From: a virus | Strand: one strand, 5' to 3' | Virus record (IMG/VR): IMGVR_UViG_3300035701_000023 | Span: 1-64,000 of that record | Length of the DNA stretch: 64,000 nt | Shown: positions 127 to 63,744 of the stretch, in pieces | How the letters are laid out: every line of letters starts with the position of its first letter | Position numbering within the stretch: position 1 is the first letter of the stretch | The notes under the pieces: generated by a model | Databases searched by the model: none | What the model was told of the DNA's origin: nothing | What the model saw: only the letters and a program-made list of their open reading frames with translations | Position numbers and translations under genes: made by a program

Positions 127-134
127 ATATTTAT
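127..134 (+). promoter_or_regulatory. Late-promoter-like element ATATTTAT
   Basis: ATATTTAT ends 4 bases before the ATG at 139. It is one of eleven copies of an (A/C/G)TATTTAT motif found just upstream of mostly structural genes. If it acts as a -10/-7 element, the transcript would begin at about the start codon. Confidence 0.5.
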
Positions 135-138
135 TGTT

Positions 139-903
139 ATGATAATTTATAAAACAACCAATTTAATAAACGGAAAAATTTATATTGGTCAAGACAAAAA
201 CAATAATCCTAACTATTTTGGATCGGGGGATTTAATTAAAAAATCAATTAAAAAATACGGAAAAAAGAATTTTATAAAAGATATTTTATGTGTTTGTGAT
301 ACAATAGACGAATTAAACAATAAAGAAAAATATTATATTACAGAATATAATACCACGGATAAAAATATTGGTTACAATATAACCATTGGTGGCACAAATG
401 GTACGATGTTAAATAGAAAACACTCTAAAGAAATGAGAGAAAAAATGAAAATCTCCGCTTTAGGTAAAAAAAAATCTGAATCCCATTGTAAAAATATTGG
501 GTTATCAAAAAAAGGAAGAATAATTTCAGACGAGGAAAAAAGAAGACGAAGTAAATATTCACCATTAAGGGGGGTTAAAAAAGGACAACTCAGTTTTGAA
601 GTTAGAAAAAAGATTAGTAATTCAAAAAAAGGTAAAACACATTCAAAAGAAACTAAAGAAAAAATGAGTAAATCTCACATGGGGATAAAAAATTCATTTT
701 ATGGGAAAAAGCATAGTGAAGACTATTTATTAAAAAAAAGAAAACCAATTATACAACTAGACATTGAAGGGAATATATTAAATGAATGGCCAAGTATTAC
801 AGAAGCATCCACACATTTAAAAATCACATGTTCAAGTATATCCTATATGTTAAATGGAAAATATAAAACAGCTGGCGGGTTTAAATTTAAATATAAAAAA
901 TAA
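139..903 (+). CDS. GIY-YIG homing endonuclease with NUMOD-type DNA-binding repeats
   Basis: Predicted free-standing homing endonuclease of 254 residues. The N-terminal GIY-YIG domain shows IIYKTTNLINGKIYIGQ at residues 2-18, a YFGSG motif near 26-30 and a conserved acidic EKYYITEY region near 65-72. The middle holds NUMOD3-like basic repeats (HSKEMREKMK, SKETKEKMSKSHMG, YGKKHSEDYL). The C-terminus resembles a NUMOD1 helix-turn-helix module (PIIQLDIEGNILNEW then ITEASTHLKI). Such enzymes cut a specific target and spread by gap repair. Its stop overlaps the ATG of the gp14-like gene (TAATG), so it was inserted cleanly between genes. It is very lysine- and AT-rich compared with its neighbours, fitting a mobile gene. 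The family call is firm; the target site is unknown. Confidence 0.9.
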   Translation: MIIYKTTNLINGKIYIGQDKNNNPNYFGSGDLIKKSIKKYGKKNFIKDILCVCDTIDELNNKEKYYITEYNTTDKNIGYNITIGGTNGTMLNRKHSKEMREKMKISALGKKKSESHCKNIGLSKKGRIISDEEKRRRSKYSPLRGVKKGQLSFEVRKKISNSKKGKTHSKETKEKMSKSHMGIKNSFYGKKHSEDYLLKKRKPIIQLDIEGNILNEWPSITEASTHLKITCSSISYMLNGKYKTAGGFKFKYKK

Positions 904-1418
904 TGAGTGATAACCGACTTCCTATAACGAGACTTTCTAAATTTTTCTCTCAAGATGACTTTGATTTAAACATTCAAATGGGGGAGGAATATTTACATGG
1001 TGACCTAGCGATGAAACTGGTGTTATACCGTGTTGATAGACAAAAAACAGAAAATGACGACGTTTATGGTGAGGTTGGTAAAGACGAAATAAAATATTTC
1101 CCTCCTGTTGAGATTAGTGCGTTAGTTAGAATAGACGCGCCAAAAAATACCTCATACAAAAATGGTTTACTTAGATACAATGAACCGGGGAATTTAACCT
1201 TTTCTGTTTACGTTAAACATCTTGATGAATTAAAGGTGGATATTAGATATGGTGATTATATCGGTTATCCTGAATCAGAAACAAGGACAAGATACTATAC
1301 TGTGGCAAATGATGGAAAGGTTATTTCTGATGGTAAACATGTAATGGGTGGTTTCAAACCATATTACAGAACAATAACTTGTGTTTTTGCACAGGACGGA
1401 GAATTTAGAGGAGTTTAA
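903..1418 (+). CDS. Neck / head-completion protein, T4 gp14-like (tentative)
   Basis: A 171-residue protein, shorter than T4 gp14 (256 aa). From memory of the gp14 family it shares the order of features: a region describing yeast-like spacing QMGEEYLHGDLAMKLVLY, an acidic VYGE motif near residues 53-56, an LTFSVYVKHL strand, a RYGDYIGYP (gp14 GDLIYFP) motif, and a C-terminal PYYRTITC strand pair. The next gene looks like T4 gp15, and sheath and tube follow, matching the T4 order 14-15-18-19. It would sit at the connector between head and tail. The start ATG overlaps the preceding stop. Function is inferred from order plus weak motif likeness, so it may instead be another connector protein. 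Confidence 0.45.
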   Translation: MSDNRLPITRLSKFFSQDDFDLNIQMGEEYLHGDLAMKLVLYRVDRQKTENDDVYGEVGKDEIKYFPPVEISALVRIDAPKNTSYKNGLLRYNEPGNLTFSVYVKHLDELKVDIRYGDYIGYPESETRTRYYTVANDGKVISDGKHVMGGFKPYYRTITCVFAQDGEFRGV

Positions 1419-1419
1419 A

Positions 1420-2852: not shown

Positions 2853-2865
2853 AGTTAAATTTTAC

Positions 2866-2897: not shown

Positions 2898-2932
2898 CAA
2901 GAAAAATACGGAAATCTTTCCAAAAAACAAAG

Positions 2933-2940
2933 ATATTTAT
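2933..2940 (+). promoter_or_regulatory. Late-promoter-like element ATATTTAT before the sheath gene
   Basis: ATATTTAT lies 38 bases before the sheath ATG, leaving an A-rich leader with no Shine-Dalgarno sequence. The same element with a similar leader precedes the tail tube gene, fitting strong late expression of these two abundant proteins. Confidence 0.5.
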
Positions 2941-2978: not shown

Positions 2979-5801
2979 ATGGCAACTTCAAACAGAGTCT
3001 TTGTTTCTCCGGGTGTCTACACATCTGAGGTAGATTTAACCTTCGTCGCACAAAGTGTTGGTGTAACAACATTAGGTTTAGTAGGTGAAACATTAAAAGG
3101 ACCAGCTTTCGAACCGGTTCTAATATCAAGTTTTGACGAGTTCAAAACATATTTCGGAAACACATCCCCTGAAAAGTATGGTGACGGAAATCCAAAATAC
3201 GAATTGGGTTATGTTGCTAAGTCTTATCTACAGGAATCCAATCAACTTTTTGTAACTAGGGTATTGGGATTAACAGGTTATAAACCTTATAATACATTTG
3301 CAATTCAAACGTTGGGTGGAGTAAATGCAACATTATCGGTAACTCCAACATCAACAGGAACTACAATGATAAAAACTGGGGTAACCACAAGTCCTGTTTA
3401 CTCTGAACTTTCAGATAAATATGATGTGGATGGAAATACCATTCCAGCATATGTTAGTGGTGGTACTTGGTCAAATGATAATTGGTTTACTATTGGTCAA
3501 GTTCCAAATTCAGGTACATCGGGATTAACTGGTACATCTATTTCATCTCCGATTGGAATATATAACAATAAGAACTGGTATAATATTTATTTCCATAAAT
3601 CAGGTGGAACAGATTCAACAATTGATGCGGTTTATTCTTATTTGTTCGTATATAGTGCTTCGACATCAACATTTATTGTTACTAGATATTCATATCCAGC
3701 ATCTTTAAACACAGATTATTCTGGTGTAATAGTTGCTGCATTAAGATCAAGAGGTCGATATGTTGGACAAACATTAACTCTTGAGGTATCGTCAAGTTCT
3801 GCTCTTAGTTTTTCTTCATCAACAATTGCAACTGATCCGTTGAGTGAATTTACATTAGATGTAACAGGTTCAACAAGTGGGGCTAAATCCTTTACATGTT
3901 CAATGGATACAAATTCAACACATAGTATTACTAAAGTTTTGGGTACGAGTGTATTTGATAAAAACTATGCTGACTTCCCTGTATATGTACATGAATCATA
4001 TCCTAATTTATTAAAGAACGCATATCAACAGGGTTGGGTTAGAGGTTTGAATGTAACAAAGGTTTATCATTTGGACACTACTGAGTTTAATCGTCAATGG
4101 GACACAACATTGTCTCCAACTGTGGTTTCTGAGGTACGTGGTGGTGAGGTAGCAGATCTTTTCCAAGTAATTACAATTTCTGATGGAAACGATGCAAACA
4201 GACAGGTAAAGATTAATATTGTTAATATTAACCTTGATACCACAGAATTTGATTTATTGGTTCGTGACTTTAATGACACCGACGAAAATATGTCAATTCT
4301 TGAAAAATACACAAGATGTTCCATGAACCCAGATATGCCGGGATATATCGCAAAGAAAATTGGTACAAGTAATACAGAATATGAATTACAGTCTAAATAT
4401 ATTATGTTGGTTATAGCTGATAATGCCCCAATCGACGCTTTCCCTGCGGGATTTAAAGGATTTGTGAGTAATAGTAATGTGTCGGGATCAACATTAGGTA
4501 GTGTAGTATATAAAACACAATATTTTGATGCGGGTGATGTTGTTTATTACAATAGTGACGGATCTGAGGAAACAACAAACGGAGATAAGGTTAGAAAAGT
4601 TTGTTTGGGACTTTCTTCACAATCAGGTTTTGATTTTGATGCTGATTTGTTTACGTATAAAGGTCAATCAGCTAATGACGAAACATTTGGTTTCCACTTA
4701 TCAGTAAATGCCGCAAGTATTACTGGAACAACATATAAAACAACTCCATATGATTTGGAAGGAGTTAATAAAGATAAGTTGGATACAATTGGGTATCGTA
4801 AATTTACATTTGCGGTTTGTGGTGGTTTCGATGGTTGGGACATTTACAGAAACGTAAGAACAAATGGTGATTCCTATATATTTGGTAGAAATACCTATAT
4901 ATCTGGAAATACAACAAATGGTGGTGTGTTCAGTACGTCAGCAGGAAATTCAGATTACTATTCTTATCTAGCGGGTATTGAGACCTTCCTAAATCCTGAA
5001 GCGGTTAACATTAACGTGTTCGCAACACCGGGAATCAACTTCTATGATCACAGTTCACTTACCACACAGGCAATTGACATGATTGAGAACGACAGATCCG
5101 ACTCACTTTACATTATAAACTCACCTAACGTAACTACATCTGATGAGGTGATAAGTAATCTAGATAATCTAGGATATGATAGTAGTTATTCCGCAACATA
5201 TTGGCCTTGGATTCAAATTAGAGATCAGGACAACGCAACACAATTGTTCATTCCACCAACAGCTGAGGTTGTTAGAAACATAGCGTTAACTGATAACGTA
5301 TCCTATCCTTGGTTCGCAGTTGCTGGATATTCAAGAGGTTTGGTTAAATCAATTAAAGCCCAGAAGAAACTGACTTTGGATGAAAGAGATGAACTTTATT
5401 TGAACAGAATTAACCCGATCGCTACTTTCTCGGATACTGGTACAATCATTTGGGGTAATAAAACCCTTCAGGTTAGAGAATCAGCCCTTGACAGGATGAA
5501 TGTGAGAAGGTTACTATTGAGAGCAAGAAAATTGATATCAGCGGTATCAGTAAGGTTGTTATTTGATCAGAATGACGATCAGGTGAGAAATGAATTCTTG
5601 AGGTTAACTAATCCAATTCTTGAAGCAATTAAGAAAGAGAGAGGTCTTTATGACTTCCGTGTAACGGTTTCAAACGCACCAGAGGATTTGGATGCTAACA
5701 CGATGAGAGGTAAGATTTACATCAAACCAACTCGTTCTCTTGAGTTCATTGAATTGGAATTCATTGTTACACCAACAGGTGCATCATTTGAAAATATATA
5801 A
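2979..5801 (+). CDS. gp18: Contractile tail sheath protein, T4 gp18-like
   Basis: A 940-residue sheath subunit. The N-terminus reads RVFVSPGVYTSEVDLTF, the classic start of contractile sheath proteins that links adjacent subunits. The C-terminal third is the conserved polymerising core: INVFATPGINFYDH, YWPWIQIRDQ, PPTAEVVRNIALTD, PWFAVAGYSRG, then LNRINPIATF and a helical RLLLRARKLISA segment, ending in the strand that completes the neighbour's fold. T4 gp18 has 659 residues. The extra length lies in the middle (about 110-480), where Ser/Thr/Gly-rich beta-type sequence suggests surface-exposed inserted domains. It has its own late promoter and terminator, so it is probably monocistronic, followed by the tube gene in T4 order. 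Very confident. Confidence 0.95.
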   Translation: MATSNRVFVSPGVYTSEVDLTFVAQSVGVTTLGLVGETLKGPAFEPVLISSFDEFKTYFGNTSPEKYGDGNPKYELGYVAKSYLQESNQLFVTRVLGLTGYKPYNTFAIQTLGGVNATLSVTPTSTGTTMIKTGVTTSPVYSELSDKYDVDGNTIPAYVSGGTWSNDNWFTIGQVPNSGTSGLTGTSISSPIGIYNNKNWYNIYFHKSGGTDSTIDAVYSYLFVYSASTSTFIVTRYSYPASLNTDYSGVIVAALRSRGRYVGQTLTLEVSSSSALSFSSSTIATDPLSEFTLDVTGSTSGAKSFTCSMDTNSTHSITKVLGTSVFDKNYADFPVYVHESYPNLLKNAYQQGWVRGLNVTKVYHLDTTEFNRQWDTTLSPTVVSEVRGGEVADLFQVITISDGNDANRQVKINIVNINLDTTEFDLLVRDFNDTDENMSILEKYTRCSMNPDMPGYIAKKIGTSNTEYELQSKYIMLVIADNAPIDAFPAGFKGFVSNSNVSGSTLGSVVYKTQYFDAGDVVYYNSDGSEETTNGDKVRKVCLGLSSQSGFDFDADLFTYKGQSANDETFGFHLSVNAASITGTTYKTTPYDLEGVNKDKLDTIGYRKFTFAVCGGFDGWDIYRNVRTNGDSYIFGRNTYISGNTTNGGVFSTSAGNSDYYSYLAGIETFLNPEAVNINVFATPGINFYDHSSLTTQAIDMIENDRSDSLYIINSPNVTTSDEVISNLDNLGYDSSYSATYWPWIQIRDQDNATQLFIPPTAEVVRNIALTDNVSYPWFAVAGYSRGLVKSIKAQKKLTLDERDELYLNRINPIATFSDTGTIIWGNKTLQVRESALDRMNVRRLLLRARKLISAVSVRLLFDQNDDQVRNEFLRLTNPILEAIKKERGLYDFRVTVSNAPEDLDANTMRGKIYIKPTRSLEFIELEFIVTPTGASFENI

Positions 5802-6068: not shown

Positions 6069-6076
6069 ATATTTAT
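6069..6076 (+). promoter_or_regulatory. Late-promoter-like element ATATTTAT before the tube gene
   Basis: ATATTTAT lies 35 bases before the tail tube ATG, followed by an A-rich leader without a Shine-Dalgarno sequence, in parallel with the sheath gene. Confidence 0.5.
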
Positions 6077-6111: not shown

Positions 6112-6600
6112 ATGGCAGATCTTTTAATGAAAATGCCGGTTCCTTATGAACCGAAAAGAGTCAACCGATTCCTCCTTAGATTTCCTTCATCATTGGGAAT
6201 TAACGAATGGTATGTTACGTCGGCCGCTAGACCTAGTGCTAAGATAAACTCAGTACCTATTCCATTTATCAACACAGAAACATACGTTGCTGGTAGATTC
6301 GTTTGGAATGAACTTAGAGTTACCTTCAAAGACCCGATTGGACCTTCAGCTTCACAAGCGTTGATGGAATGGTTCCGTTTACATGCTGAATCTGTTACTG
6401 GTAGAATGGGTTACGCCGCAGGATATAAAAAAGACATTGAATTGGAAATGTTAGACCCAACAGGGGTTGTAATTGAAAAGTGGATCCTACAAGGAACATT
6501 CATTACTGATTTAAACTTTAATGAATTGGACTATTCAAGGGACGAACTTGCAACTATTACTGCGTCGCTTCGTATGGATCGTTGCATCCTCGTGTATTGA
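6112..6600 (+). CDS. gp19: Tail tube protein, T4 gp19-like
   Basis: A 162-residue protein, close to T4 gp19 (163 aa), that would stack as hexameric rings to form the inner tail tube around the tape measure. Recognisable features are the N-terminal PYEPKRVNRFLLRFPSSLGI, the strand pair ETYVAGRFVWNELRVTFKDPIG, the helix ALMEWFRLHAESVTGRMGYAAGYKKDIEL and the C-terminal WILQGTFITDLNFNELDYS strand pattern typical of the family. It follows the sheath gene as in T4 and has its own late promoter and its own terminator, fitting a very abundant virion protein. High confidence. Confidence 0.95.
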   Translation: MADLLMKMPVPYEPKRVNRFLLRFPSSLGINEWYVTSAARPSAKINSVPIPFINTETYVAGRFVWNELRVTFKDPIGPSASQALMEWFRLHAESVTGRMGYAAGYKKDIELEMLDPTGVVIEKWILQGTFITDLNFNELDYSRDELATITASLRMDRCILVY

Positions 6601-7605: not shown

Positions 7606-7613
7606 CTATTTAT
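7606..7613 (+). promoter_or_regulatory. Late-promoter-like element CTATTTAT before the tape measure
   Basis: CTATTTAT ends 4 bases before the ATG at 7618 and overlaps the very end of the gp51-like frame. This predicts a transcript that starts at or within a base or two of the start codon. Confidence 0.5.
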
Positions 7614-7617: not shown

Positions 7618-9579
7618 ATGAATCAAGAACTATTAAGATTAGCAAGAGCACGAAACAGTTCCTTGTTTATTAGTACATATCTCTCATTAAATCCGGGACA
7701 CACTAACACTCAAGCGTCAAGTGCATATAATGGATATCTTTCACAAATTGCTGGAGGAAATGGCGGAGGAACAGGTGGTGGTTATACTCCCCCACCCGCA
7801 AACAACAATGGTGGAGCTGGTGTTGGGGGTGGTGGATGGTTAACAACCATTGGATCAACACTAAACGATGGATTTAAAGGTATTGTCGGTCTTACAGAAA
7901 AATTTTACAGAACACAGTTTGGACAAAATAAAGAACTTGGTGGTCCTGATAATAATGTGGGTCAAAAAATATTAGATCTATTACAAAGTGGTGGATTTAA
8001 TCCACTTAAATTAATTGGTGGTGGTTTTGTTGAAATTGAAAATGAAATTCTTGATCAGTTAACCAGAGAATCTCAATTAAAAAGTGAGATAAACTCAAAA
8101 AGTACTTTAACATTAGAACTATCAAAAGACTTAAGAGAAGATATTTTAGAATCATCAATAAATGCTTCTAAATTTGGATTTACACTTAACCAACTTGGTG
8201 AATTATATACGGGTTTAGCTGAAAAATCTGGTAGATATGCATTAATTAATAAGGAGACAATGGATTTAGCTGCACCAGTGGCCGCAACTTTATCCATGAG
8301 TATGGAACAACTATCAGATACAATTAATGAATTTGAAAAAGTTGGTAAGGGTGCTAATGACACACTTGAAACTATATTTGAAGTTGAGAAAAGATCAATG
8401 GTTCTTGGGTTAAATGGTAAAAAAATAGTTGCAGATTTACAAACAAATATTGGAAAATTAAACGAATACGGATTTAAAAAAGGGGTTGAGGGATTAGCTG
8501 AAATGACGAGAAAGGCCGTTGAATTCAGAATGAGTATGGAGGAATCATTTAAAATTGCCGATAAGGTAATGAATCCAGAGGGTGCGTTAGAGTTAACGGC
8601 AAATTTACAGGTATTAGGTGGAGCAATTGGTGATTTTAATGATCCACTTAAACTAATGTATATGGCAACAAATAATGTTGAGGGATTACAAGATGCGTTA
8701 ATTGATGCATCAAAATCTCTAGCAACATATAATGAGGAGCAAGGTAGATTTGAAATTACAGGGATTAATCTAAGACGAGCTAAAGAAATGGCAACTCAAT
8801 TGGGTGTTTCTTATCAAGAATTGGCAAAGGGTTCAATAGCGGCCGCTGAAAGATCTAATGCTGCAACGTCATTAATGATGAGTGGATTACAAATGAAAGA
8901 TGACGATAAAGAACTTCTTTTAAACTTATCAAGAATGGAAAAGGGTGAAATGGTTATAAAAATACCACAAACCATTGCTAGTAGATTTGAAGGTAAAACA
9001 GAAGTTAGACTTGACCAAATGACTGAAGGGTTGAAAAAGGAATTAATAGCAAATGCCGAAGCCATAAAAGGAATGAAACCTGAAGATATGGCTATGGCAC
9101 AATTAACTGAGACACAAAAGATGGCTATGTATTTAGAATCAATTGCCGCTTGGGGAAAAAGAAGAGGAGTACAAATATTCAGAGGAGCATTAGAAGGATC
9201 GGGGTTACAGGGTAAAATGCAAGATAAATATAGTGACATAATCAAATATAGTAATGAAATAAAACCCACAATAAAAGACGTAAACTTTCAGCAAAATATT
9301 AAAGTGAAAACCGAAGAAGGTATTGATAATTTAAAAAAAATACCCGAAAGATTAAAACAAAAGGGTAAAAAAATATTAAACGATGCAGGTGATTGGATAG
9401 AAGATAATTTAGGTATAGGTAAAGTTGATGTTAAACACACACACGAACATATCTTCAGAACACCAAATCTTGTTGATAACATTTCAAGAGAAATGATTAA
9501 AGGTAATATGATGATGACCGAAGAACCAAATCCAAGAGGATATCTTGGTAAAAATAAAATGAATAATAATTATGTTTAA
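7618..9579 (+). CDS. Tape measure-like tail protein
   Basis: A 653-residue, mostly helical protein directly after the chaperone-like pair, the standard position of the tape measure. The N-terminus (about 45-77) is an unusual Gly/Pro/Asn-rich linker. Residues about 140-560 are long amphipathic helices with repeated Ala/Leu/Glu-rich segments, as expected for a rod in the tail lumen. T4's equivalent is gp29 (590 aa). By the common rule of about 0.15 nm per residue it would fit a tail near 100 nm. The C-terminus carries KVDVKHTHEHIFRTPN, seen in other large-phage tape measures as the segment before the last helices. Function is inferred from position and composition, not from a catalytic motif. 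Confidence 0.7.
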   Translation: MNQELLRLARARNSSLFISTYLSLNPGHTNTQASSAYNGYLSQIAGGNGGGTGGGYTPPPANNNGGAGVGGGGWLTTIGSTLNDGFKGIVGLTEKFYRTQFGQNKELGGPDNNVGQKILDLLQSGGFNPLKLIGGGFVEIENEILDQLTRESQLKSEINSKSTLTLELSKDLREDILESSINASKFGFTLNQLGELYTGLAEKSGRYALINKETMDLAAPVAATLSMSMEQLSDTINEFEKVGKGANDTLETIFEVEKRSMVLGLNGKKIVADLQTNIGKLNEYGFKKGVEGLAEMTRKAVEFRMSMEESFKIADKVMNPEGALELTANLQVLGGAIGDFNDPLKLMYMATNNVEGLQDALIDASKSLATYNEEQGRFEITGINLRRAKEMATQLGVSYQELAKGSIAAAERSNAATSLMMSGLQMKDDDKELLLNLSRMEKGEMVIKIPQTIASRFEGKTEVRLDQMTEGLKKELIANAEAIKGMKPEDMAMAQLTETQKMAMYLESIAAWGKRRGVQIFRGALEGSGLQGKMQDKYSDIIKYSNEIKPTIKDVNFQQNIKVKTEEGIDNLKKIPERLKQKGKKILNDAGDWIEDNLGIGKVDVKHTHEHIFRTPNLVDNISREMIKGNMMMTEEPNPRGYLGKNKMNNNYV

Positions 9580-20439: not shown

Positions 20440-20447
20440 ATATTTAT
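20440..20447 (+). promoter_or_regulatory. Late-promoter-like element ATATTTAT
   Basis: ATATTTAT ends 10 bases before the ATG at 20458. The 20 bases TATTTATATAAAAAAGAATG at 20441-20460 are repeated exactly at 63738-63757 in front of the NusG-like gene. Confidence 0.55.
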
Positions 20448-20457: not shown

Positions 20458-20661
20458 ATGCAAAATCCTAAATTAAATGACGCGGTTGAACAATTCTTAA
20501 ATCCCAAGATAGTTACCCCTATTTCTGATGACGATAAAGATCAGGAAGTATGTGACCTACAAACGGGAGAATGTTATGTAATAAGAACCAAAGATGGAAT
20601 TGTTGAAAGAATAAATAAAACTTATGTCACCGAAGACGGTAGACAATTACTACAAGACTAA
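20458..20661 (+). CDS. Small acidic protein of unknown function
   Basis: A 67-residue protein I do not recognise. It is acidic, with an IVTPISDDDKDQEVCDLQTG segment containing CDLQTGEC, a short Cys-x6-Cys loop, and ends with YVTEDGRQLLQD. It follows a clear late-type promoter and lies at the end of the baseplate region, 4 bases before a Pro-rich gene, so it is probably a late virion or assembly gene. No membrane segment is visible. Confidence 0.7.
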   Translation: MQNPKLNDAVEQFLNPKIVTPISDDDKDQEVCDLQTGECYVIRTKDGIVERINKTYVTEDGRQLLQD

Positions 20662-29106: not shown

Positions 29107-29114
29107 ATATTTAT
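29107..29114 (+). promoter_or_regulatory. Late-promoter-like element ATATTTAT before gp25
   Basis: ATATTTAT ends 4 bases before the ATG at 29119. The longer open frame from 29059 would run through both the terminator stem and this element, which is why the shorter start is chosen. Confidence 0.55.
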
Positions 29115-29118: not shown

Positions 29119-29571
29119 ATGAGTATAACATATGGAGTAGATTATCCCTTCATGGACAGTCAAAAGGGAGATTTTTTAAAAATGACCGAAACTCCCGAAA
29201 GAGAGGTTAGAGCGAATCTGATTCATCTTCTTTTATCTAGAAAAGGTAGTAGATATTTTTTACCTGATTTCGGAACAAGATTATATGAATATATTTTTGA
29301 TGAGAATGACACAGTAGTCTTCGGTCAAATTGAAGATGAAATAAGAGAATCTATAAGAAAATATATTCCAAATTTGGATATAAATTCCATAACAATAACA
29401 TCGGCCGAAAATGATCCCGATGAACCTGTAAGTATTGTTGAGGGGGAAGATAATAGATTGTTTAGGGTTTCACAAGGAGCAACTAAACCATACACCGCAA
29501 AGGTTAAAATAGACTATACGGTAAATAACGGAGCATTTTCATCTTCCGACTTTATAATTATTAACATATAA
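29119..29571 (+). CDS. gp25: Baseplate wedge protein, T4 gp25-like
   Basis: With the ATG at 29119 the product is 150 residues, near T4 gp25 (132 aa). The GPW/gp25 fold is shown by VRANLIHLLLSRKGSRYFLPDFGTRLYEYIFDE-type order: a helix ending in LLLSRKGSR, then PDFGTRLYEYIF, then a helix VFGQIEDEIRESIRKYIPNL and alternating strands to the end. gp25 is part of the wedge core that nucleates the sheath. It is the first gene of the wedge operon and is followed after one base by gp6, the T4 order. The extended frame from 29059 adds a hydrophobic stretch not expected in this family. Confidence 0.85.
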   Translation: MSITYGVDYPFMDSQKGDFLKMTETPEREVRANLIHLLLSRKGSRYFLPDFGTRLYEYIFDENDTVVFGQIEDEIRESIRKYIPNLDINSITITSAENDPDEPVSIVEGEDNRLFRVSQGATKPYTAKVKIDYTVNNGAFSSSDFIIINI

Positions 29572-31444: not shown

Positions 31445-31452
31445 CTATTTAT
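31445..31452 (+). promoter_or_regulatory. Late-promoter-like element CTATTTAT
   Basis: CTATTTAT ends 5 bases before the ATG at 31458. A short inverted repeat (GATTTTCT 31410-31417 / AGAAAATC 31428-31435) without a T-run lies just upstream, so some termination of the gp6 message before this promoter is possible. Confidence 0.5.
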
Positions 31453-38881: not shown

Positions 38882-38889
38882 ATATTTAT
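38882..38889 (+). promoter_or_regulatory. Late-promoter-like element ATATTTAT
   Basis: ATATTTAT, followed by an A-rich 12-base leader, before the ATG at 38902. It lies within 6 bases of the preceding stop codon. Confidence 0.5.
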
Positions 38890-38901: not shown

Positions 38902-39819
38902 ATGGCAGTAGGATCATACGGAATTATAAGACCATCAGATATCTCTCCCGCAGACGTGGAAATTTATTACCATTATGTGGCCAGTAGAATATCCACCGCT
39001 GATGTCACACTAAAAAGATTAGATCCACAGGATGTTCTCACCCCTGTGTTTCATAATAGTGAAACAACAGACGACACTAATGCGCCGAATGTTGAAATTT
39101 TGGGTGGGTTATATAATCTAAAATTAAGTTCAGCTGATTTTTCTGAACTCGGGATATATACCCTTCACATTAGACCAAAACAAATAAGAACATCCATTAC
39201 AGACTGTGGAATACTCGCTTCTTTACCTTCAGTTAGGGGATTAATAATTGATTTGAGTAATGTTCCATCCGCTGACAGAAATAAATTCACCCCACAAGGA
39301 TTAGTTGGATATAGGATTGAGTATATCAATCCAGATAACAACGCTAAAATTCCGAATTTTTACAGAGTGGTCACATCTTCGTTTTTCTGTACTCCCGTTG
39401 TTTCAAATTTAACAAACACAGCACAGAAAGCAATCAGATACCAATATAGTGATGAAGCAACGAATCTGATGTTCTTAACTGTAACACCATCATCGGCGCC
39501 ATCAAGTAGGCCAAACACGGTTCCATTCATTGGTCAACCAGCACAGAAAATTATTTTAACGAACACATTTTTGAATCCAACTACACTTGAAATCGAAATG
39601 GTTGAACATGATTCAACAACATTAGCATATGCGTTGTATGGTAATCAAACCAAAGCAATAGCTCCGGGTATTTACACCATCTACGATAATAACAATAATA
39701 TCTATAAACAATACAATTTATATGAAATCAAGGATGACTTGAATGAAACATTGTATGAAGTTAGGGAAAAGAAAACGGATATTGATCAGACGTTAGATTT
39801 TAATACCATAACAGGATAA
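38902..39819 (+). CDS. Structural protein, unnamed
   Basis: A 305-residue protein with its own late-type promoter. The sequence is beta-rich, starting MAVGSYGIIRPSDISPADVE, with a GIYTLHIRPKQIRTSITDCG segment near 92-111 and a C-terminal charged tail (YEVREKKTDIDQTLDF). Length and composition suggest a fibre-base or wedge component. No T4 homologue is recognised. The stop overlaps the next ATG (TAATG), so it is coupled to the 1340-residue protein that follows. Confidence 0.6.
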   Translation: MAVGSYGIIRPSDISPADVEIYYHYVASRISTADVTLKRLDPQDVLTPVFHNSETTDDTNAPNVEILGGLYNLKLSSADFSELGIYTLHIRPKQIRTSITDCGILASLPSVRGLIIDLSNVPSADRNKFTPQGLVGYRIEYINPDNNAKIPNFYRVVTSSFFCTPVVSNLTNTAQKAIRYQYSDEATNLMFLTVTPSSAPSSRPNTVPFIGQPAQKIILTNTFLNPTTLEIEMVEHDSTTLAYALYGNQTKAIAPGIYTIYDNNNNIYKQYNLYEIKDDLNETLYEVREKKTDIDQTLDFNTITG

Positions 39820-43852: not shown

Positions 43853-43860
43853 ATATTTAT
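43853..43860 (+). promoter_or_regulatory. Late-promoter-like element ATATTTAT
   Basis: ATATTTAT ends 5 bases before the ATG at 43866, another candidate for a transcript beginning at about the start codon. Confidence 0.5.
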
Positions 43861-43865: not shown

Positions 43866-46001
43866 ATGAGTTTTTTAAACACAAATAATTCTGAGTTCCT
43901 AACCGTAAGAATTACAAAAAAGGGAAGAAACGCCATTTCTAAGGGTAATTTTGTTATTTCCTATTTTCAGGTTGGAGATTCTGAATATGATTACACTCAT
44001 CCCTTTGATAAGTTAACGGGTGCGGGAGGATCACCTAGTCAGAAGGTATTTTCACCTATGGATAAAGAGAGTGGCGTTAAATACCCGTATAAAATAGACT
44101 CAACAAGTGGTGTAACCACATATGGTAACCCAATACAACAAGCATATACTGACACATTAAGAAATGTGATGGGGCCAGCTGGTTTCGTCACAGATTATAT
44201 CCCATATCAAACAACAGGAACGGGGTTTACTGGAACAACCGTAATGTGTGTTACATCTACGTTAAATTTTACTGGTTTAACCGGAACAAATACACTTACA
44301 GTACCAACAGGCAACACATATCAAAATTGTGAGTTCATAACATTAGTTTTTAATACGTTTGATAATACCAACCCTAATGATCCATTAATTAAAAGTGGTA
44401 GAACAAACAGTTTAGTTTACAAAGTAACCGGAATAACTGGTAACACTTTATATTTGGATAGAAAAACCCCAACACTTTCCGGAGTAACAGGAACAGCAGA
44501 AATTGTAGGAAATAAATGTTCAATTGAATTCCCAATTATTACGGGAACAACATGTCCACCACCAAGTTGTGATCCATATGATCAACACGATCCTTGGACT
44601 TTGGATATTGTGTGGGGAGAAAACCCAATTGGATATACGGGGGCAACGGAAAATAATTTGACTGGTTTTACCGGCAACCAATTCGTATCGACAAAACAAT
44701 TTTTGGGATATACAACATCATCGGGTCAGAGTGTAAATTCAGGTACAACATATACAAACTCATATGACGAGGTGATTTATGTAACACCCGAAGAACAAAG
44801 GGTACTAGCAATTATACATTACTCTGAATTGGGGGACATTGTAAATGATCCCGAAAGATTTTTCAAGTATGATGATTATATTAGTACCAATGATGTGATT
44901 GGTGATTCAATAGTTGATGATAGGAGTGGTAACACAATTACTGATACCGAATATTTTGAAATATATATACCATTTATTTTATACCACAGGAACACAGGAA
45001 CAACTATTGGCGCCACTTTCCATATGGATACGGTTAACCAACTGGTAGAGACACCAACAACGATTAGTGATGGAAGATCTGAATTAGCGTTTAGATATTT
45101 GTTAGACGAACAGAACAATAGGGTTGGTAGGGCTTATTACAATAACAAAACAATTGTATTTGATGATCAAGAATTGGTAGCAATACTAGATTACAGATCA
45201 AACAGGAAACATACCCTTGGATCACCTAAGACATTCTTAGTACATAGTGATAACACTTTAGTAAATTCATTGGTTTCCGGGGTAACAGACCAAAAATTCT
45301 GGATAACTTATATATTCACGAATTCAGGAACAACATTGAATTCATTACCGTGTAATTACTATACAAGTATTACAAGTGTTGGATCTTCATCAAATGATTG
45401 TCACCCAAATGTCCCGTCTAACATTGGAATTAAATTTGACATAGGTACATTCCAATTCATGGAAACCACATTATCTGGTTTTACAAAAGGATTTTTAGGA
45501 ACTGGATTTAAGGTGTTGGTACAAGAAACCACAATGACTGGGTATCCATCCACCGATTTATGGAGAGAAATTGATTATACCACACAGGCAAGTGGAAATG
45601 GTATTTCATATCTGAATAGAACAAATATTGAAGACAAAACATTTATAATCACCAAGTCGGGATATACAGGTGCATCATTATTTAATCTCGACACATATAT
45701 GGGAAATGGATACATTGTTCAGGAACCATCTACCAAACCAAAATTCGGTGACGAACAACCATTCCCCGGAAGCATAAAACTTATTAGATCAACCGACATA
45801 GAAGTGATGGACTTTCTAATAAATCTACCAAGTACTCAATTTACCGTAACACAAAATCCAACATATACAATTGGAGATACTAAAAAAATAACGGAGATTG
45901 CATTATTGAATAATAATAAGGAAGTATATGCTGTTGGAAAAACAGCAAGTCCTTTAACAAGATCAGGTACTCAGGTGTTTGCGTTGAAATTGGATTTCTA
46001 A
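43866..46001 (+). CDS. Large tail structural protein, unnamed
   Basis: A 711-residue protein with its own late-type promoter. The N-terminus (FLTVRITKKGRNAISKGNFVISYFQVGDSEYDY) resembles the start of phage tail proteins that attach to the baseplate. The following region is Thr/Gly-rich (TGTGFTGTTVMCVTSTLNF, LTGTNTLTVPTGNTY), then more globular, including LAIIHYSELGDIVNDPERFF near 315-334. It is the last virion gene before the recombination block. A short-fibre or wedge-tip role is possible but not shown. Confidence 0.6.
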   Translation: MSFLNTNNSEFLTVRITKKGRNAISKGNFVISYFQVGDSEYDYTHPFDKLTGAGGSPSQKVFSPMDKESGVKYPYKIDSTSGVTTYGNPIQQAYTDTLRNVMGPAGFVTDYIPYQTTGTGFTGTTVMCVTSTLNFTGLTGTNTLTVPTGNTYQNCEFITLVFNTFDNTNPNDPLIKSGRTNSLVYKVTGITGNTLYLDRKTPTLSGVTGTAEIVGNKCSIEFPIITGTTCPPPSCDPYDQHDPWTLDIVWGENPIGYTGATENNLTGFTGNQFVSTKQFLGYTTSSGQSVNSGTTYTNSYDEVIYVTPEEQRVLAIIHYSELGDIVNDPERFFKYDDYISTNDVIGDSIVDDRSGNTITDTEYFEIYIPFILYHRNTGTTIGATFHMDTVNQLVETPTTISDGRSELAFRYLLDEQNNRVGRAYYNNKTIVFDDQELVAILDYRSNRKHTLGSPKTFLVHSDNTLVNSLVSGVTDQKFWITYIFTNSGTTLNSLPCNYYTSITSVGSSSNDCHPNVPSNIGIKFDIGTFQFMETTLSGFTKGFLGTGFKVLVQETTMTGYPSTDLWREIDYTTQASGNGISYLNRTNIEDKTFIITKSGYTGASLFNLDTYMGNGYIVQEPSTKPKFGDEQPFPGSIKLIRSTDIEVMDFLINLPSTQFTVTQNPTYTIGDTKKITEIALLNNNKEVYAVGKTASPLTRSGTQVFALKLDF

Positions 46002-53992: not shown

Positions 53993-54007
53993 TATATGTA
54001 TATTTAT
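53993..54007 (+). promoter_or_regulatory. Overlapping early- and late-type elements before the sigma gene
   Basis: TATATGTATATTTAT contains both the early-type core ATGTATATTT and the late motif ATATTTAT (54000-54007). It lies within an imperfect palindrome TTTCTATA...TTATAGAAA. The sigma ATG is 73 bases downstream. Confidence 0.45.
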
Positions 54008-54080: not shown

Positions 54081-54899
54081 ATGCAGATAAAAAAATCTAT
54101 AACCCTAAACACCGAAGAATTTCAACAATACATAAAAGATTTAAAGAAAATACCAGTAATTAGCCACAAAAGGCAGGAGGAGATCTTTTTAAAACTTAAT
54201 AAAAAAAATATTGATAAAACGGAACGGGAAGAACTTTTAAATGAGTTGGTGATTGGTAATTTACGTTTTGTGATTTCTGTTGCTAAAATGTATCAAAATC
54301 AGGGGTTAGATATACTTGATTTAATTTCCGAAGGAAATATTGGGTTAATAAAGGCATCCAAGAGATATGATCCAACGAGTGGGTTTAAATTCATATCATA
54401 TGCTGTGTGGTGGATAAAACAATCAATCATTGCGTCTTTAAATGAATATTCTCGGACAATACGAATACCATCAAATTTAATTCAAGAGTCACAGAAACAA
54501 AAAAAGGGTAACGATAAATCCGAAGAAAATGATTTTTTCATAAAACCAGAAGATGAATCAAACGAAACTAATTTACCATACTGTGTTGGATTGAATAGTG
54601 AAATAAATGAAGATGGTGATCAACTTATTGATATCATACCAAATAGAAATGCCGATAATCCTGAAAACTCATTAAATACTAAGGATGAGATAAAAAAGAA
54701 GGTATCATTAATGTTAAGTGTCTTAGATGAAAGAGAAAAAATCATTATTGAAAAATATTATGGATTGACAGGGGTTGAGTCAAATTTAGATGATTTGGGT
54801 GAGGAATTTGGATGTACAAAAGAAAGAATCCGTCAGTTGAGAGATAAAGCCATAAAGAAGTTACGAAACGAAAGTTTTACACTTCTTAAGTATTTATGA
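54081..54899 (+). CDS. Sigma-70 family factor, Bacteroidota RpoD-like
   Basis: A 272-residue sigma factor. Region 1.2/2.1 begins IKKSITLNTEEFQQYIKDLK, region 2.1-2.2 has LVIGNLRFVISVAKMYQNQG and LDLISEGNIGLIKASKRYDP, and regions 2.3-2.4 have GFKFISYAVWWIKQSI. Region 4 is intact (LDDLGEEFGCTKERIRQLRDKAIKKLR). The order and wording follow the Bacteroidota primary sigma (about 287 aa). The section corresponding to region 3.0-3.1 (about 137-170) is replaced by a short charged linker, while a region 3.2-like NSEINEDGDQLIDIIPN is kept. It sits where T4 has its late sigma gp55 (near 46/47), so it may direct RNA polymerase to the TATTTAT promoters. Confidence 0.9.
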   Translation: MQIKKSITLNTEEFQQYIKDLKKIPVISHKRQEEIFLKLNKKNIDKTEREELLNELVIGNLRFVISVAKMYQNQGLDILDLISEGNIGLIKASKRYDPTSGFKFISYAVWWIKQSIIASLNEYSRTIRIPSNLIQESQKQKKGNDKSEENDFFIKPEDESNETNLPYCVGLNSEINEDGDQLIDIIPNRNADNPENSLNTKDEIKKKVSLMLSVLDEREKIIIEKYYGLTGVESNLDDLGEEFGCTKERIRQLRDKAIKKLRNESFTLLKYL

Positions 54900-54903: not shown

Positions 54904-56091
54904 ATGAAATGGCTTAAAATATTATTGGGATTTTCGGCAATATTGGTTGCTGGATGTGCCGCATTTTTTTCCGTAACAGGTTTAGGTTTATTATTTAGTG
55001 GTGCCGCTATGTCAGTAATGATAATGGCGGGATCACTTGAGTTTGCTAAGTTGGTTGCGGCTACCTATCTTAAACAAAAGTGGACAGAACTCAAGGGTTT
55101 CTTTAAATGGTATCTCGTTTCCGCTGTTATTATTTTAATGATAGTAACATCTGCGGGTATTTTCGGATTTTTATCAAACGCCTTCCAACAACAAAGTATT
55201 AAATTAGATCAGGTACAAAGAGAAATTTCCGTATGGGATGTAAAAATTAAATCAAATGATGATCAGGTTAAATCCTTAACAACCCAACTATCGGCATTAC
55301 AGAGTAATCAAACAACCATTATTGATAAAGGTAAAATCAATAGAACGTTATTGAGATCGGTTGACAATAGGGATAAACAAGTATCCAAGATACAAGATAA
55401 AATTTCGGTTTATCAAGATAGTACCGTTAAATATAATCAATACATTAATAATATTAAAAATACCAATATTGGATTGGAAAAAGAAATTGGTGGATTTAGA
55501 TTTGTTGCTCAGGCTTTTAATGTTGAATTGGGAACGGTTGTAAAGTTTTTTATATTATTAATCATCTTTGTTTTTGATCCATTGGCTATAGCGTTGATAG
55601 TTGCGTTTAATCAGATGTTGATGTTCAAAAAAAGAAAGGATGATGATGTAAGTGACGGTGTTAATCCTCAAGATTTAATGGGTGAAGTTTCAAGAGTTAG
55701 ATTATCTGAAGATGATCTTAGTAAATTGGAAACATTTTTAAACAGACCACCCAAACCAAATGATGATTTAAAACTCGCGGCGGATGAGTATGAAAAAAGA
55801 ATGAGAGAATATGTTGACGAACACCATGACGATAATGATGAGGATCATTCTCACAAAAATTACCCACACGATAACGAAGAGGATGATCATGGTGCGGAAA
55901 TTAATGAGAGGGAAAGTTCTTTCCACCAAGCCCCCGAATTTGTTGATAAAGAGACAATAATTTCCACCGTAACCCCCGAAAAAGAAAATAATTTCCACGA
56001 AGAACCAAAAAAAGAAAAAATCTATCATAAAGAATGGCCTCATTATGAATTGAACAACAATGAGGAAAACGAGAAAAAAAATAAAACATAA
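54904..56091 (+). CDS. Membrane protein with coiled coil and acidic His-rich tail
   Basis: A 395-residue protein. Hydrophobic helices lie near 3-25, 28-50, 68-92 and 208-235, with a coiled coil (about 95-190, containing SIKLDQVQREISVWDVKIKS) between the third and fourth. The C-terminal 130 residues are highly charged with His/Asp/Glu runs (EHHDDNDEDHSHKNYPHDNE). Such a protein would sit in the host inner membrane. It follows the sigma gene after 4 bases. I do not recognise a function; candidate roles are host takeover, lysis control or membrane docking of phage complexes. Confidence 0.7.
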   Translation: MKWLKILLGFSAILVAGCAAFFSVTGLGLLFSGAAMSVMIMAGSLEFAKLVAATYLKQKWTELKGFFKWYLVSAVIILMIVTSAGIFGFLSNAFQQQSIKLDQVQREISVWDVKIKSNDDQVKSLTTQLSALQSNQTTIIDKGKINRTLLRSVDNRDKQVSKIQDKISVYQDSTVKYNQYINNIKNTNIGLEKEIGGFRFVAQAFNVELGTVVKFFILLIIFVFDPLAIALIVAFNQMLMFKKRKDDDVSDGVNPQDLMGEVSRVRLSEDDLSKLETFLNRPPKPNDDLKLAADEYEKRMREYVDEHHDDNDEDHSHKNYPHDNEEDDHGAEINERESSFHQAPEFVDKETIISTVTPEKENNFHEEPKKEKIYHKEWPHYELNNNEENEKKNKT

Positions 56092-57495: not shown

Positions 57496-58154
57496 TGGAA
57501 AAAGGATTAAAATCATTAAGAGATAGATTAGATTTTCTAGAATTTTCATTATCCAACACCGTCGATCCGATAAATGTAATACATATAGAGGGACAAATGA
57601 AAGAGGTTAAGAATAAAATAGAAAAAATAAAAAAGAATAATAAAATGGGTGGGTTAAAAGATAAACATAAGGAAAAAAAAGTGGAGAAATCTGAACCTAA
57701 AGAACAAACAATGGCCGATTCTTCTGGTTCGTTTGAATCTCCAATGAGCGCCCCCATTACAAAAAGAAAAATCTACCAACAACACAATTCCAAAAAATAT
57801 GGTAAACAGCAGGATGTTGATGAGGTAACGGACGCATCATCATCTGGATCGTTTGATGTTCCATTTGGTGGTGGAACGAAAGGGCGTAAAGATCCATTAA
57901 AAATTGATGGGGTTAAGAGTATTGCGAACTGTATGGCCGTAAAAAAGAAAAACTTTCCAAAGTGGGGTGGTCCCGGTGGAACATTCATCAAGATTAAGGA
58001 GAAATGTAAGAAGTTCCCCTATTGTAATCAGGGTGACATCAACGCTATTGAACCACTACGTGAGGCGATCGCTGAAACAGCAAAAGAATATGGTTTATCG
58101 ATTGGTGAGGTGGAGAATCTTGTGTTAAACGAGATTAAACGAATATTTATCTAA
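57495..58154 (+). CDS. Basic protein with repeated SSGSF motifs, possible internal virion protein
   Basis: A 219-residue protein. After a coiled-coil start (LKSLRDRLDFLEFSLSNT) and a Lys-rich linker it carries two SSGSF motifs (SSGSFESPMSAP near 76-87, SSGSFDVPFGGG near 115-126). Then comes IDGVKSIANCMAVKKKNFPKW and WGGPGGTFIKIKEKCKKFPYCNQGDI, a conserved-looking Gly/Lys/Cys module, and a final helix. The repeats could be processing or docking sites. Basic, modular character fits a DNA-associated head protein, but this is inference. Confidence 0.6.
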   Translation: MEKGLKSLRDRLDFLEFSLSNTVDPINVIHIEGQMKEVKNKIEKIKKNNKMGGLKDKHKEKKVEKSEPKEQTMADSSGSFESPMSAPITKRKIYQQHNSKKYGKQQDVDEVTDASSSGSFDVPFGGGTKGRKDPLKIDGVKSIANCMAVKKKNFPKWGGPGGTFIKIKEKCKKFPYCNQGDINAIEPLREAIAETAKEYGLSIGEVENLVLNEIKRIFI

Positions 58155-58155
58155 T

Positions 58156-59565
58156 ATGAAACCAAAAGAATTAAATGATTTTATTAATAGTATCGTTGCC
58201 GAAGAGGTAAAAAATACGATATTAGAAGAATCTATGGAGGGTGGAAAGAAGGTTTACCACATTAAAAGTGAAAATGAGCCTGTTGATACCTTTGATACTC
58301 CTGAAGAAGCTTATCATCATTTAGATCTTTATAAAAAAGACCACCCCGGTAAACAATTTATTATTGAGAAGGGGATATATGAATCCCATTCCGATATGAT
58401 TGAGAAATTAGACGCTATGGGTGAACAAATTGAACAAAACGAATCAAACAACATGAAAAAATCTCCAGTTAAGGTAAAAAGTATTGCTGAGGCAATATTA
58501 CACGCTAAAGAAAACGGAATCAAGAAAGTTAGAATAAACGAAGAAGTATTTGACGTTGCTGAGGCATGGGAAGAAATGGAAAAACAGGAAGGTAAGGAAG
58601 AAGAAATGAGTGAGAATGATGACTTCGCTTCAAAAAAATGGGGGGTTAACCATAAAAAATCAACCGCTGGAATGCCTGAACTTCCTGAAAAGAATCCGTG
58701 GGATGAAAAGGAAGAAGATGGTGGTGATGAAAAAAAAGAACCAAAAAAAGGTGTTGATCTTGGTAAGTCATTTGAAAAATTTAAAAAAGAAACAAAAGAG
58801 GAAGAAGAATGTGATGAGTGTGGAGGAGAGGAAATAAGCGAGGCTGTTTGTGAAAAATGTGGTAAAGAACCATGTGAGTGTGTCGTTAAAGAATCAAAAA
58901 AGAAAAGTGTTAGAATAACCGAAGCCCAACTCATCAATGTAATTTCAAACATTGTAAAAGAATCATCAGAAAGTATTCCGGGTGTTTCAGTAACTAAGAA
59001 GGCGCAGGCGGGGTCTAAGAAAGAGAATGACGCAAATGCCACAGCGGTAGGAAAGAAGATGAAAGATTATCTATCATTTGACGGTAATGACAATCCAGAA
59101 TTCCCTAAACAGATCGGTAAAGGAGAAAAAATTGCGATTAATAATACTAAAGAAGAAGAAAGTGTGGTTGATGATAATAGAGGAAGGGGTCCAGAAAATT
59201 TAGTATATGATCAGGAGCCATCCAAAAAATTTAAAGAAAGAATGAAAGGTTCATTGGAAGGAGATACGAAGATGGGCAATTCAACAGACTCAACAAAAAT
59301 TCAAAAAAAGGATATAACAAATGGTGGAGATGTGGGTGACACGATGGATGGTAATGGAACAACAATTAAAACCGACACCGGTAAAAAAATTAATAAATTA
59401 ATACCAACGAAGGAAAAGGAAAAGAAAGAAGAACCAAGATATAAAAAAGAACCAGTACCAGTTAAGGTTGTAAAAGAATCCACAGGTATTAAGTTCTCTA
59501 CATTAGTTGAAGAAGAATTGGTAAGAATGAACAGGCTAACAAAATACAATAATAAAACTCAATAA
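58156..59565 (+). CDS. Acidic Lys/Glu-rich protein with zinc-ribbon core, unknown role
   Basis: A 469-residue, very charged and mostly disordered-looking protein. It starts with a helix (ELNDFINSIVAEEVKNTILE), has a YHIKSENEPVDTFDTPEEAYHHL module near 35-55, a Cys-rich core CDECGGEEISEAVCEKCGKEPCEC (about 216-239, written here in part as CDECGG and CEKCGKEPCEC), and further helices RITEAQLINVISNIVKES and IKFSTLVEEELVRMNRL like the N-terminal one. Three similar helices suggest repeated binding modules. The long minus-strand open frame across it is a composition artefact. Likely a scaffold, core or inhibitor-type protein. Confidence 0.6.
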   Translation: MKPKELNDFINSIVAEEVKNTILEESMEGGKKVYHIKSENEPVDTFDTPEEAYHHLDLYKKDHPGKQFIIEKGIYESHSDMIEKLDAMGEQIEQNESNNMKKSPVKVKSIAEAILHAKENGIKKVRINEEVFDVAEAWEEMEKQEGKEEEMSENDDFASKKWGVNHKKSTAGMPELPEKNPWDEKEEDGGDEKKEPKKGVDLGKSFEKFKKETKEEEECDECGGEEISEAVCEKCGKEPCECVVKESKKKSVRITEAQLINVISNIVKESSESIPGVSVTKKAQAGSKKENDANATAVGKKMKDYLSFDGNDNPEFPKQIGKGEKIAINNTKEEESVVDDNRGRGPENLVYDQEPSKKFKERMKGSLEGDTKMGNSTDSTKIQKKDITNGGDVGDTMDGNGTTIKTDTGKKINKLIPTKEKEKKEEPRYKKEPVPVKVVKESTGIKFSTLVEEELVRMNRLTKYNNKTQ

Positions 59566-61367: not shown

Positions 61368-61374
61368 AGTAATC

Positions 61375-62460: not shown

Positions 62461-62889
62461 ATGAAATACGTGTCGGGGTTTATGTTTAATAGGGATAGGT
62501 CTGAGGTGGCGTTGATTAAAAAAAATCGCCCAGAATGGCAGAAAGGGTTTTTAAACGCCATCGGGGGTAAAATAGAAGAGGGAGAACATGAAATAAACGC
62601 AATGTGTAGAGAGTTTGAGGAGGAGACGGGGTTAAAAACGTATTACTATGACTGGAAGTATCTTATAAAGTTAATTAATAAAAATCCAGACTGGGAAGTT
62701 CAATTTTTTAAGGGTAATGTCGAGGATTTTAGTCAAATCAAATCAATCACAGACGAAGAGGTTGTTATTATTAATGTTTCAAACTTAGAGAACGAAAAAG
62801 TGATACCAAATCTTCATTGGTTAATTAAAATGTGTTTAGATGATGAGGTTGTTGGTGGCAATATTACAAATAAATCAAAAATAAAATAA
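62461..62889 (+). CDS. Nudix hydrolase
   Basis: A 142-residue Nudix enzyme. The full box is present at residues 36-58: GKIEEGE, seven residues, then REFEEETGL, with all catalytic glutamates. Such enzymes cut nucleoside diphosphate-linked compounds; T4 NudE acts on ADP-ribose and Ap3A-type substrates, but this sequence alone does not tell the substrate. An RNA decapping or nucleotide-pool role is possible. It has its own early-type promoter and is followed after 1 base by the methylase. Confidence 0.9.
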   Translation: MKYVSGFMFNRDRSEVALIKKNRPEWQKGFLNAIGGKIEEGEHEINAMCREFEEETGLKTYYYDWKYLIKLINKNPDWEVQFFKGNVEDFSQIKSITDEEVVIINVSNLENEKVIPNLHWLIKMCLDDEVVGGNITNKSKIK

Positions 62890-62890
62890 A

Positions 62891-63733
62891 ATGATTTCAT
62901 ATATTGGTGGAAAGGCTAGAATCGGCAAATGGATCGTTCCATTTATCCCAAAAGATATAGAAACGTATGTAGAGGGGTTTTCAGGGATGTTCTGGGTCTT
63001 CTTTAATATGAACCTTATGGACTATCCAAATTTAAAAACGGTCATTTATAACGACTTTAATGGTCTTAACGCGAATCTTATGAAGTGTTCCCTTCAATAT
63101 GAAAGATTGTGGGAAGAATTGAACAAATATCCTTGTCAACAGCTCGGAGTAGTCGACACCCCTAAAGAATATGGTGAATTATTCAGAACGTGTCAAAAAG
63201 AGGTTTTTGATCCGGGGTTTGTGGTTGGGGATGAACCAAATTTTGATGCTGCGGGTAAATATGTATATGTTTTAACACAGGTGTTTTCAGGATCTAAACC
63301 AGAAACCTCTACCTATACTGATTATAAGGGAAAATACCGTTGCAAGGTTCTTATTTTTATGGATAAGTTAAAACATCCCGAATATAGGAAACATTTTGAT
63401 AAAATAACATTTGTGGAGAATAAAGATTTTGAAGAGGTGGTTGAAAAATACGATTCACCAACAACTTATTTTTATATGGACCCACCCTATTGGAAAACCG
63501 AAAATTATTATTCAAATCATGATTTTGATGCAAAGGATCACGAGAGATTAATTAATTGTTTAAAAAATATGAAAGGAAAGTTTGGTTTGTCTTATTATGA
63601 ATTCCCCAAACTTTTAGAATGGTTACCGAAGGATCTTTATCATTGGGAACAGAAAAATTTCAAGAAGGCGGCCGCAGCCAAGAAAGACGGGACGCAAAAT
63701 GAGGGAACTGAATTGTTAATTATGAATTATTAA
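62891..63733 (+). CDS. DNA adenine N6-methyltransferase, Dam-like
   Basis: A 280-residue methylase. Motif I-like YIGGKARIGKWIVPFIP is at 4-20 (SAM-binding in the D12/Dam class), motif IV is DPPYWK near 198-203, and FGLSYYEF near 234-241 is the target-recognition follow-up. The order (FxGxG first, DPPY late) is that of alpha-class Dam enzymes. It would mark phage DNA, giving protection from restriction or a signal for replication and packaging. The recognised sequence is not deducible. No matching restriction endonuclease is next to it. Confidence 0.85.
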   Translation: MISYIGGKARIGKWIVPFIPKDIETYVEGFSGMFWVFFNMNLMDYPNLKTVIYNDFNGLNANLMKCSLQYERLWEELNKYPCQQLGVVDTPKEYGELFRTCQKEVFDPGFVVGDEPNFDAAGKYVYVLTQVFSGSKPETSTYTDYKGKYRCKVLIFMDKLKHPEYRKHFDKITFVENKDFEEVVEKYDSPTTYFYMDPPYWKTENYYSNHDFDAKDHERLINCLKNMKGKFGLSYYEFPKLLEWLPKDLYHWEQKNFKKAAAAKKDGTQNEGTELLIMNY

Positions 63734-63736
63734 TTG

Positions 63737-63744
63737 GTATTTAT
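63737..63744 (+). promoter_or_regulatory. Late-promoter-like element GTATTTAT before the NusG-like gene
   Basis: TATTTATATAAAAAAGAATG at 63738-63757 is identical over 20 bases to 20441-20460. This includes the ATG, so promoter, leader and start are shared with a gene 43 kb away. Confidence 0.6.

Follow-up and report, generated by a model that had tools for sequence, protein, structure and literature searches.

A TATTTAT element at the virion genes of large phages as a probable T4-like late promoter, with about a third of the late units predicted to be leaderless or nearly so

Can a promoter lie so close to a start codon that its transcript begins at the AUG itself? This question is raised by a 64,000-base stretch of viral DNA (hereafter the window), bases 1-64000 of the 68,302-base IMG/VR virus record IMGVR_UViG_3300035701_000023, an incomplete 68-kb fragment. 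A first-pass annotation had noticed the heptamer TATTTAT upstream of at least eleven genes and had proposed that it acts as a late promoter placed so near to the ATG that late mRNAs may be leaderless. The gene content of the window is that of a contractile-tailed phage with T4-like parts, as it encodes tail sheath, tail tube, baseplate hub and wedge, a UvsX-like recombinase and a DnaB helicase, and further an SbcC/D-like pair, a primase and a head protease. No match to known phages was obtained by megablast with the first 25 kb. Our analysis suggests, with a probability of roughly 0.8, that TATTTAT belongs to a T4-like late promoter with a gp55-like reader and that about a third of the late units are leaderless or nearly leaderless.

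All eleven copies were found on the plus strand (Table 1), and for the five that had been placed 4-5 nucleotides (nt) before the ATG (genes 139, 7618, 29119, 31458 and 43866) this gap, counted from the end of the motif to the ATG, was confirmed. Two near-ATG copies had escaped the annotation, one at 54891 and one at 58144. A genome-wide count against shuffled sequence, which had been suggested as a check, gave a divided answer: the whole window holds 45 copies on both strands versus 53.3 expected from shuffles and is thus not enriched, but the motif occurs within 45 nt upstream of 11 of the 56 gene starts, 13 times the expectation (P about 1e-9), and is the top-enriched 7-mer upstream of the window starts. 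The signal in the window is positional and not one of global over-representation.

To extend the comparison beyond the window, 320 IMG/VR loci were fetched by searches with the sigma, sheath and wedge proteins and the protein encoded at 38902. Removal of near-duplicates left 168 loci with 2711 genes, including one relative of 287 kb (G001); a gene was taken to begin where the longest open reading frame (ORF) has its first ATG, and counts across these relatives share ancestry, partly also between the four large genomes. Upstream of 1648 starts in relatives TATTTAT was enriched 17-fold, and the preceding A, C or G that had been described held in about 94% of the copies. The motif was near all-or-none by ortholog family: in families that head a virion unit 83-100% of the members had it, whereas it was found in 0 of 50 cases at the gene directly behind the wedge gene (29573 family) and in 0 of 42 at the sigma family. 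Helicase, exonuclease and SbcC/D-like genes had it in no or almost no case, and most replication, recombination and sigma genes stood at or near 0%. This pattern, with downstream genes lacking the motif, indicates that TATTTAT is placed at the head of virion units, and the proposed role as a late promoter is supported by this gene-class specificity; the motif genes are presumably late, as judged from their virion and packaging content. The word itself is strict, the exact heptamer occurring 66.7 times per position at gaps 4-6 versus 7.7 for the best single-base variant. The motif had also been read as the reverse complement of the T4 late element, which did not hold: TATTTAT is oriented with the gene, and neither TATAAATA nor ATAAATA peaked near the ATG upstream of the relatives' genes, while ATAAATA did emerge when this method was applied to T4.

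The distance between motif and ATG pointed to a transcription start site. When four relatives, 251-311 kb in size, were pooled, gaps 0 to 14 were taken by 1, 1, 1, 1, 26, 30, 23, 12, 7, 3, 2, 8, 9, 11 and 20 genes, respectively. Gaps of 0-3 are almost excluded, those of 4-6 stand out as a sharp peak, and a valley at 8-10 separates this peak from another at 13-17. The valley (12 genes at gaps 8-10 versus 42 at gaps 13-15) was significant with P = 5e-5, and gaps 4-6 held 26.3 genes per position versus 0.47 further upstream, a 56-fold difference. In promoters with gaps of 11-17 the fifth, sixth and seventh bases after the motif were A in 84, 94 and 87% of cases, respectively. The sixth base was A in 83-100% at each single gap from 11 to 17, which ties this A to the motif and not to the ATG. 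The A-rich places 5-7 bases after the motif coincide with those taken by the A of the ATG at gaps 4, 5 and 6. The simplest reading is that transcription would start with the motif-locked A, which in the abutting promoters would belong to the AUG. Where a frame opens 4-6 nt behind the motif, the most frequent first codons include only one of the usual start codons, ATG. No conserved -35 partner element was seen in either family-balanced or pooled profiles of the relatives, leaving a single AT-rich box at the -10 position, without an upstream block and with the start predicted 5-7 bases downstream. TATTTAT would thus represent the -10-position element of a promoter of the T4-like late class, covering about -12 to -6.

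Genes without TATTTAT served as an internal calibration. Upstream of these, the Bacteroidetes sigmaA box TATATTTG was 7.6 times and TAHHTTTG 3.8 times as frequent near the start as far from it, and late genes were depleted of TAHHTTTG (0.6-fold). In Flavobacterium johnsoniae the sigmaA box extends from -12 to -5, and 4 or 5 nt separate it from the start site (PMC6847099). When the T-12 and A-11 of both boxes are aligned, TATTTAT falls at -12 to -6 and a gap of 5 is predicted, as observed. Boxes of the TAHHTTTG type that abut an ATG in the phages did so mainly at gap 4 (14 genes) and never at 5-6, with the main peak of this class at 17-23. Altogether, 91 of 271 late but only 19 of 209 early promoters abutted the ATG (P = 9e-11).

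A host that does not rely on Shine-Dalgarno (SD) pairing would be in line with this arrangement. By a strict definition, an SD-like element preceded 49 of the 2711 genes in the relatives, and by a looser one 3-5% of the genes in the four large relatives versus 34% in Mel-JY01, a Microcystis phage reported from a cyanobacterium. In Mel-JY01 the motif lies mostly 13-45 nt from the ATG and never at 4-6, and T4 late boxes at gaps 4-6 are likewise missing. For the SD-using side (Mel-JY01 and T4) gaps of 4-6 occurred in 0 of 34 cases, compared to 79 of 274 in the four relatives (P = 3e-5), in keeping with the view that a promoter can close in on its gene where no SD leader is needed. The host of the phage group is probably a member of the Bacteroidetes, as suggested by the promoter box, the scarcity of SD elements and the relation to Flavobacterium phage immuto; ribosomes of these bacteria, working without SD pairing, would not need a leader to hold the SD. 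In about a third of the late units the initiating A would then be the A of the AUG or lie within 1-3 bases of it. The suggestion of leaderless late mRNAs is accordingly retained for this third only; sheath, tube and other units probably carry leaders of some 5-35 nt.

The ribosomal protein bS21 is encoded by 9 of 14 large relatives. Its gene was considered as a further member of the late set, but TATTTAT was located upstream of only 3 of the copies read. A strong SD (AGAGGAG) is present in 37 of 54 relatives at the family of gene 1420-2694, and almost no other gene has one. As the bS21 gene rpsU of Flavobacteriales has an extended SD (PMC9976891), gene 1420-2694 may by analogy be a bS21-sensitive phage gene. 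One could further imagine that the late programme is split on purpose, with minor virion and packaging functions (gp25-like wedge, portal, terminase) being leaderless, sheath and tube being leadered, and a phage bS21 or another late factor tuning Bacteroidetes ribosomes toward 5'-terminal AUGs; we regard this as a rather doubtful possibility.

Two candidates for reading the motif had to be weighed. The window encodes a sigma factor of the primary type at 54081, which the first-pass annotation had proposed to test as the driver of the motif and which might replace the host sigmaA late in infection. Its gene, located among late genes, is conserved across many relatives, and the protein contains regions 2 and 4. 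A sigma factor with region 4 would usually call for a -35 element, and no conserved block of this kind was seen for it to use. Each of the four large relatives encodes a second, divergent sigma-like protein of 232 amino acids (L339:12056-12751; G001:C1:50056-50754), which corresponds to immuto26A_153 in immuto and to WWT39502.1 in Mel-JY01, both annotated as hypothetical. The best match of its profile in the PDB was the T4 gp55 chain (E = 1.9e-4), and in the T4 genome the profile gave a single match (39723-40133, E = 4e-6) within a 188-residue ORF, which from its position and length we take to be gene 55. An AlphaFold model of the protein was of low confidence (predicted local distance difference test, pLDDT, 65), its best fold matches being sigma factors, albeit weak ones. 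TATTTAT is the top 7-mer in the late regions of immuto (17 copies versus 1.6 expected) and is also enriched in Mel-JY01 (10 versus 0.8). Both phages thus share the motif and the gp55-like protein, but searches of immuto returned no match to the window sigma or to sigma region 2 or region 4, and those of Mel-JY01 none to region 4. For this reason the gp55-like protein is probably the better candidate, which would borrow the host RNA polymerase, and reading by the sigma factor encoded in the window appears unlikely. In the relatives, the motif hardly ever occurs upstream of the sigma-type genes themselves.

Other explanations of the motif leave more of the data unaccounted for. TATTTAT might act in the RNA, as an AU-rich cleavage site or as a ribosome-attracting element ahead of late cistrons, which would suit an AU-rich sequence near the AUG and the location of the copies at 54891 and 58144, which fall within the last part of a co-directional gene upstream. 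However, downstream cistrons of the same units lack the motif, the gap ranges from 4 to 40 depending on the family, and in G001 the upstream neighbor of 18 of the 84 motif genes is divergently oriented, so that the start site must fall between the genes. In addition, the A locked 5-7 bases after the motif is as expected of a start site, and the motif is the counterpart of the TATAAATA recovered in T4 by the same method, so that a role in the RNA is highly improbable. Hardly more can be said for the notion that the near-ATG promoters are real but translation starts at a downstream in-frame codon behind an ordinary leader. The gene starts are indeed predicted, but in ATG-abutting families the conserved part of the protein begins only a few residues from the predicted methionine (e.g., M..TYGIDYPFRDS, M.NKLPITRLSKFF), and the gap is fixed to the ATG, being 4 or 5 nt in 32 of the 32 motif-bearing members of the 29119 family; we consider it very unlikely. 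Finally, a chance AT-rich word in AT-rich intergenic sequence would agree with a whole-window count not above that of shuffles, but not with the 13- and 17-fold enrichment at gene starts in the window and in the relatives nor with a strict word at family-specific spacing. Refuted by the conservation tests, this explanation can practically be dismissed.

A T4-like late promoter with a gp55-like reader therefore remains the favored explanation, against which several points have to be set. The starts of transcription were derived from sequence alone, from counts that share ancestry and from gene starts assigned by the first-ATG rule given above. With a gap of 4 the ATG comes one base before the canonical start, and some mRNAs may start slightly differently. 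Immuto, which infects a Flavobacterium host and has almost no SD elements, possesses only 4 ATG-abutting promoters among 32, so that freedom from SD alone is insufficient to fix the abutting share. The link between the gp55-like sigma and the motif is a co-occurrence in few phages, and the gp55-like gene lies outside the 68-kb fragment. A search for a T4-type sliding clamp with PF02916 found only that of T4, although divergent clamps would be missed by it.

Table 1. TATTTAT copies and the sigma gene in the window, with the occurrence of the motif at the corresponding genes of relatives
Feature	Position	Strand	Gap to ATG (nt)	Gene concerned	Occurrence in relatives
TATTTAT	128..134	+	4	homing endonuclease gene 139-903	
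TATTTAT	2934..2940	+	38	tail sheath gene 2979-5801	55/60, mostly gaps 34-41
TATTTAT	6070..6076	+	35	tail tube gene 6112-6600	46/52
TATTTAT	7607..7613	+	4	gene 7618-9579	29/29, gap 4 in 14
TATTTAT	20441..20447	+	10	small gene 20458-20661	
TATTTAT	29108..29114	+	4	gp25-like baseplate wedge gene 29119-29571	32/34, all gap 4 or 5
TATTTAT	31446..31452	+	5	gene 31458-35384	34/35, mostly gaps 5-8
TATTTAT	38883..38889	+	12	gene 38902-39819	35/36, mostly gaps 11-13
TATTTAT	43854..43860	+	5	gene 43866-46001	
TATTTAT	54001..54007	+	73	sigma gene 54081	unconserved, 1/42 within 120 nt
Sigma factor, primary (sigmaA/RpoS-like) type, regions 2 + 4	54081..54899	+			
TATTTAT	54891..54897	+	6	gene 54904-56091; motif within sigma gene end	15/42
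TATTTAT	58144..58150	+	5	gene 58156-59565; motif within preceding gene's end	30/36, gaps 4-8
TATTTAT	63738..63744	+	10	gene 63755 (runs past window)	15/20 of family

Several of the individual sites show features of their own. Relatives have the counterpart of the promoter at 128 directly at the ortholog of gene 903, with a gap of 4-7 nt. In the window the homing endonuclease gene is inserted between this promoter and the gene that the promoter originally served, gene 903, and captures the promoter. The copy at 54001 is possibly the remnant of a lost late gene. Directly upstream of the motif at 29108, a hairpin is followed by T-rich sequence. The family of gene 63755 (L005:756-1277) matches a PHROG of transcription antiterminators (NusG-like), and a NusG-like antiterminator gene is thus found under a late promoter. 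A further motif, 43 nt before the 56687 family, lies at a fixed distance within the upstream coding frame and may reflect a protein-coding constraint; it was excluded from the support. On the minus strand, opposite to the virion genes, positions 2691-2852 encode a conserved protein of 52 amino acids resembling the ParG-like ribbon-helix-helix proteins (E = 0.004, below the family cut-off); in 46 of 55 relatives a separate TATTTAT precedes the gene of this protein. Many late proteins of G001 (e.g., L342, L343, L344) share N-terminal tags of the form M(K)xxITESQLKxLI or LTESxLxxLI, which resemble capsid-targeting leaders cut by a prohead protease, and 12 of 16 tagged genes have the late promoter. 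The region L005:3439-5303 at the end of the record is highly repetitive and probably represents a collagen-like fiber gene.

Late promoters of T4 consist of TATAAATA and are read by gp55 together with gp33 and the gp45 clamp (PMC2988020). The promoters described here resemble them in having one AT-rich -10 box, no -35 element and AT-rich sequence downstream, in preceding the first genes of virion units, and in the presence of a gp55-like sigma, encoded here in relatives. They differ in the box itself, as TATTTAT is a forward variant of TATAAATA, and in its placement: in the 75-125 kb region of T4 the boxes are 14-28 nt from the ATG and none is nearer, whereas here about a third are at 4-7 nt. 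Bacteroidetes sigmaA promoters (TAHHTTTG) share the position of T-12 and A-11 as well as the spacing to the start site (PMC6847099), but the late element lacks their invariant TTTG, and TAHHTTTG serves the non-late genes of the phage.

The predicted abutment also has parallels among leaderless systems. In mycobacteria, leaderless transcripts have the -10 element placed immediately upstream of the AUG. Such transcripts in mycobacteria and in some phages share with those proposed here the abutting -10 element, the ATG start and the lack of an SD (the mechanism of leaderless mRNAs is reviewed in PMC9031893); they differ in that the arrangement here is largely confined to one temporal class, at about four times the share in the phage's own early class. 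The late share, as predicted for the phages, also exceeds the leaderless share of 5.5% in F. psychrophilum (PMC9723704), and in F. johnsoniae 87% of the leaders are longer than 10 nt (PMC6847099). For freshwater Bacteroidetes phages encoding bS21, metatranscriptomes have shown late transcription of the structural genes and of bS21, which do not behave as a single operon (Chen et al., 2022, PMC9723584); this fits the many separate late promoters found here. Most of the large relatives encode bS21 as well, a likeness in gene content. The main text of that study makes no mention of promoters, sigma factors or leaderless mRNA, and the open-access papers that were searched yielded no account of a TATTTAT late promoter or of leaderless late mRNA in phages of Bacteroidetes. 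Thus, gp55-type late promoters and leaderless mRNAs are both known in kind, and what seems to be new is the use of TATTTAT as the promoter word and its regular placement directly at the ATG in one temporal class.

These results point to a probable late promoter in a group of large phages that is abundant and mostly uncultured, and start sites in these phages would become predictable nearly to the base; with Flavobacterium phage immuto a cultivated phage is at hand in which the motif can be tested. More generally, they suggest how a phage promoter can shift once the ribosomes need no Shine-Dalgarno leaders.

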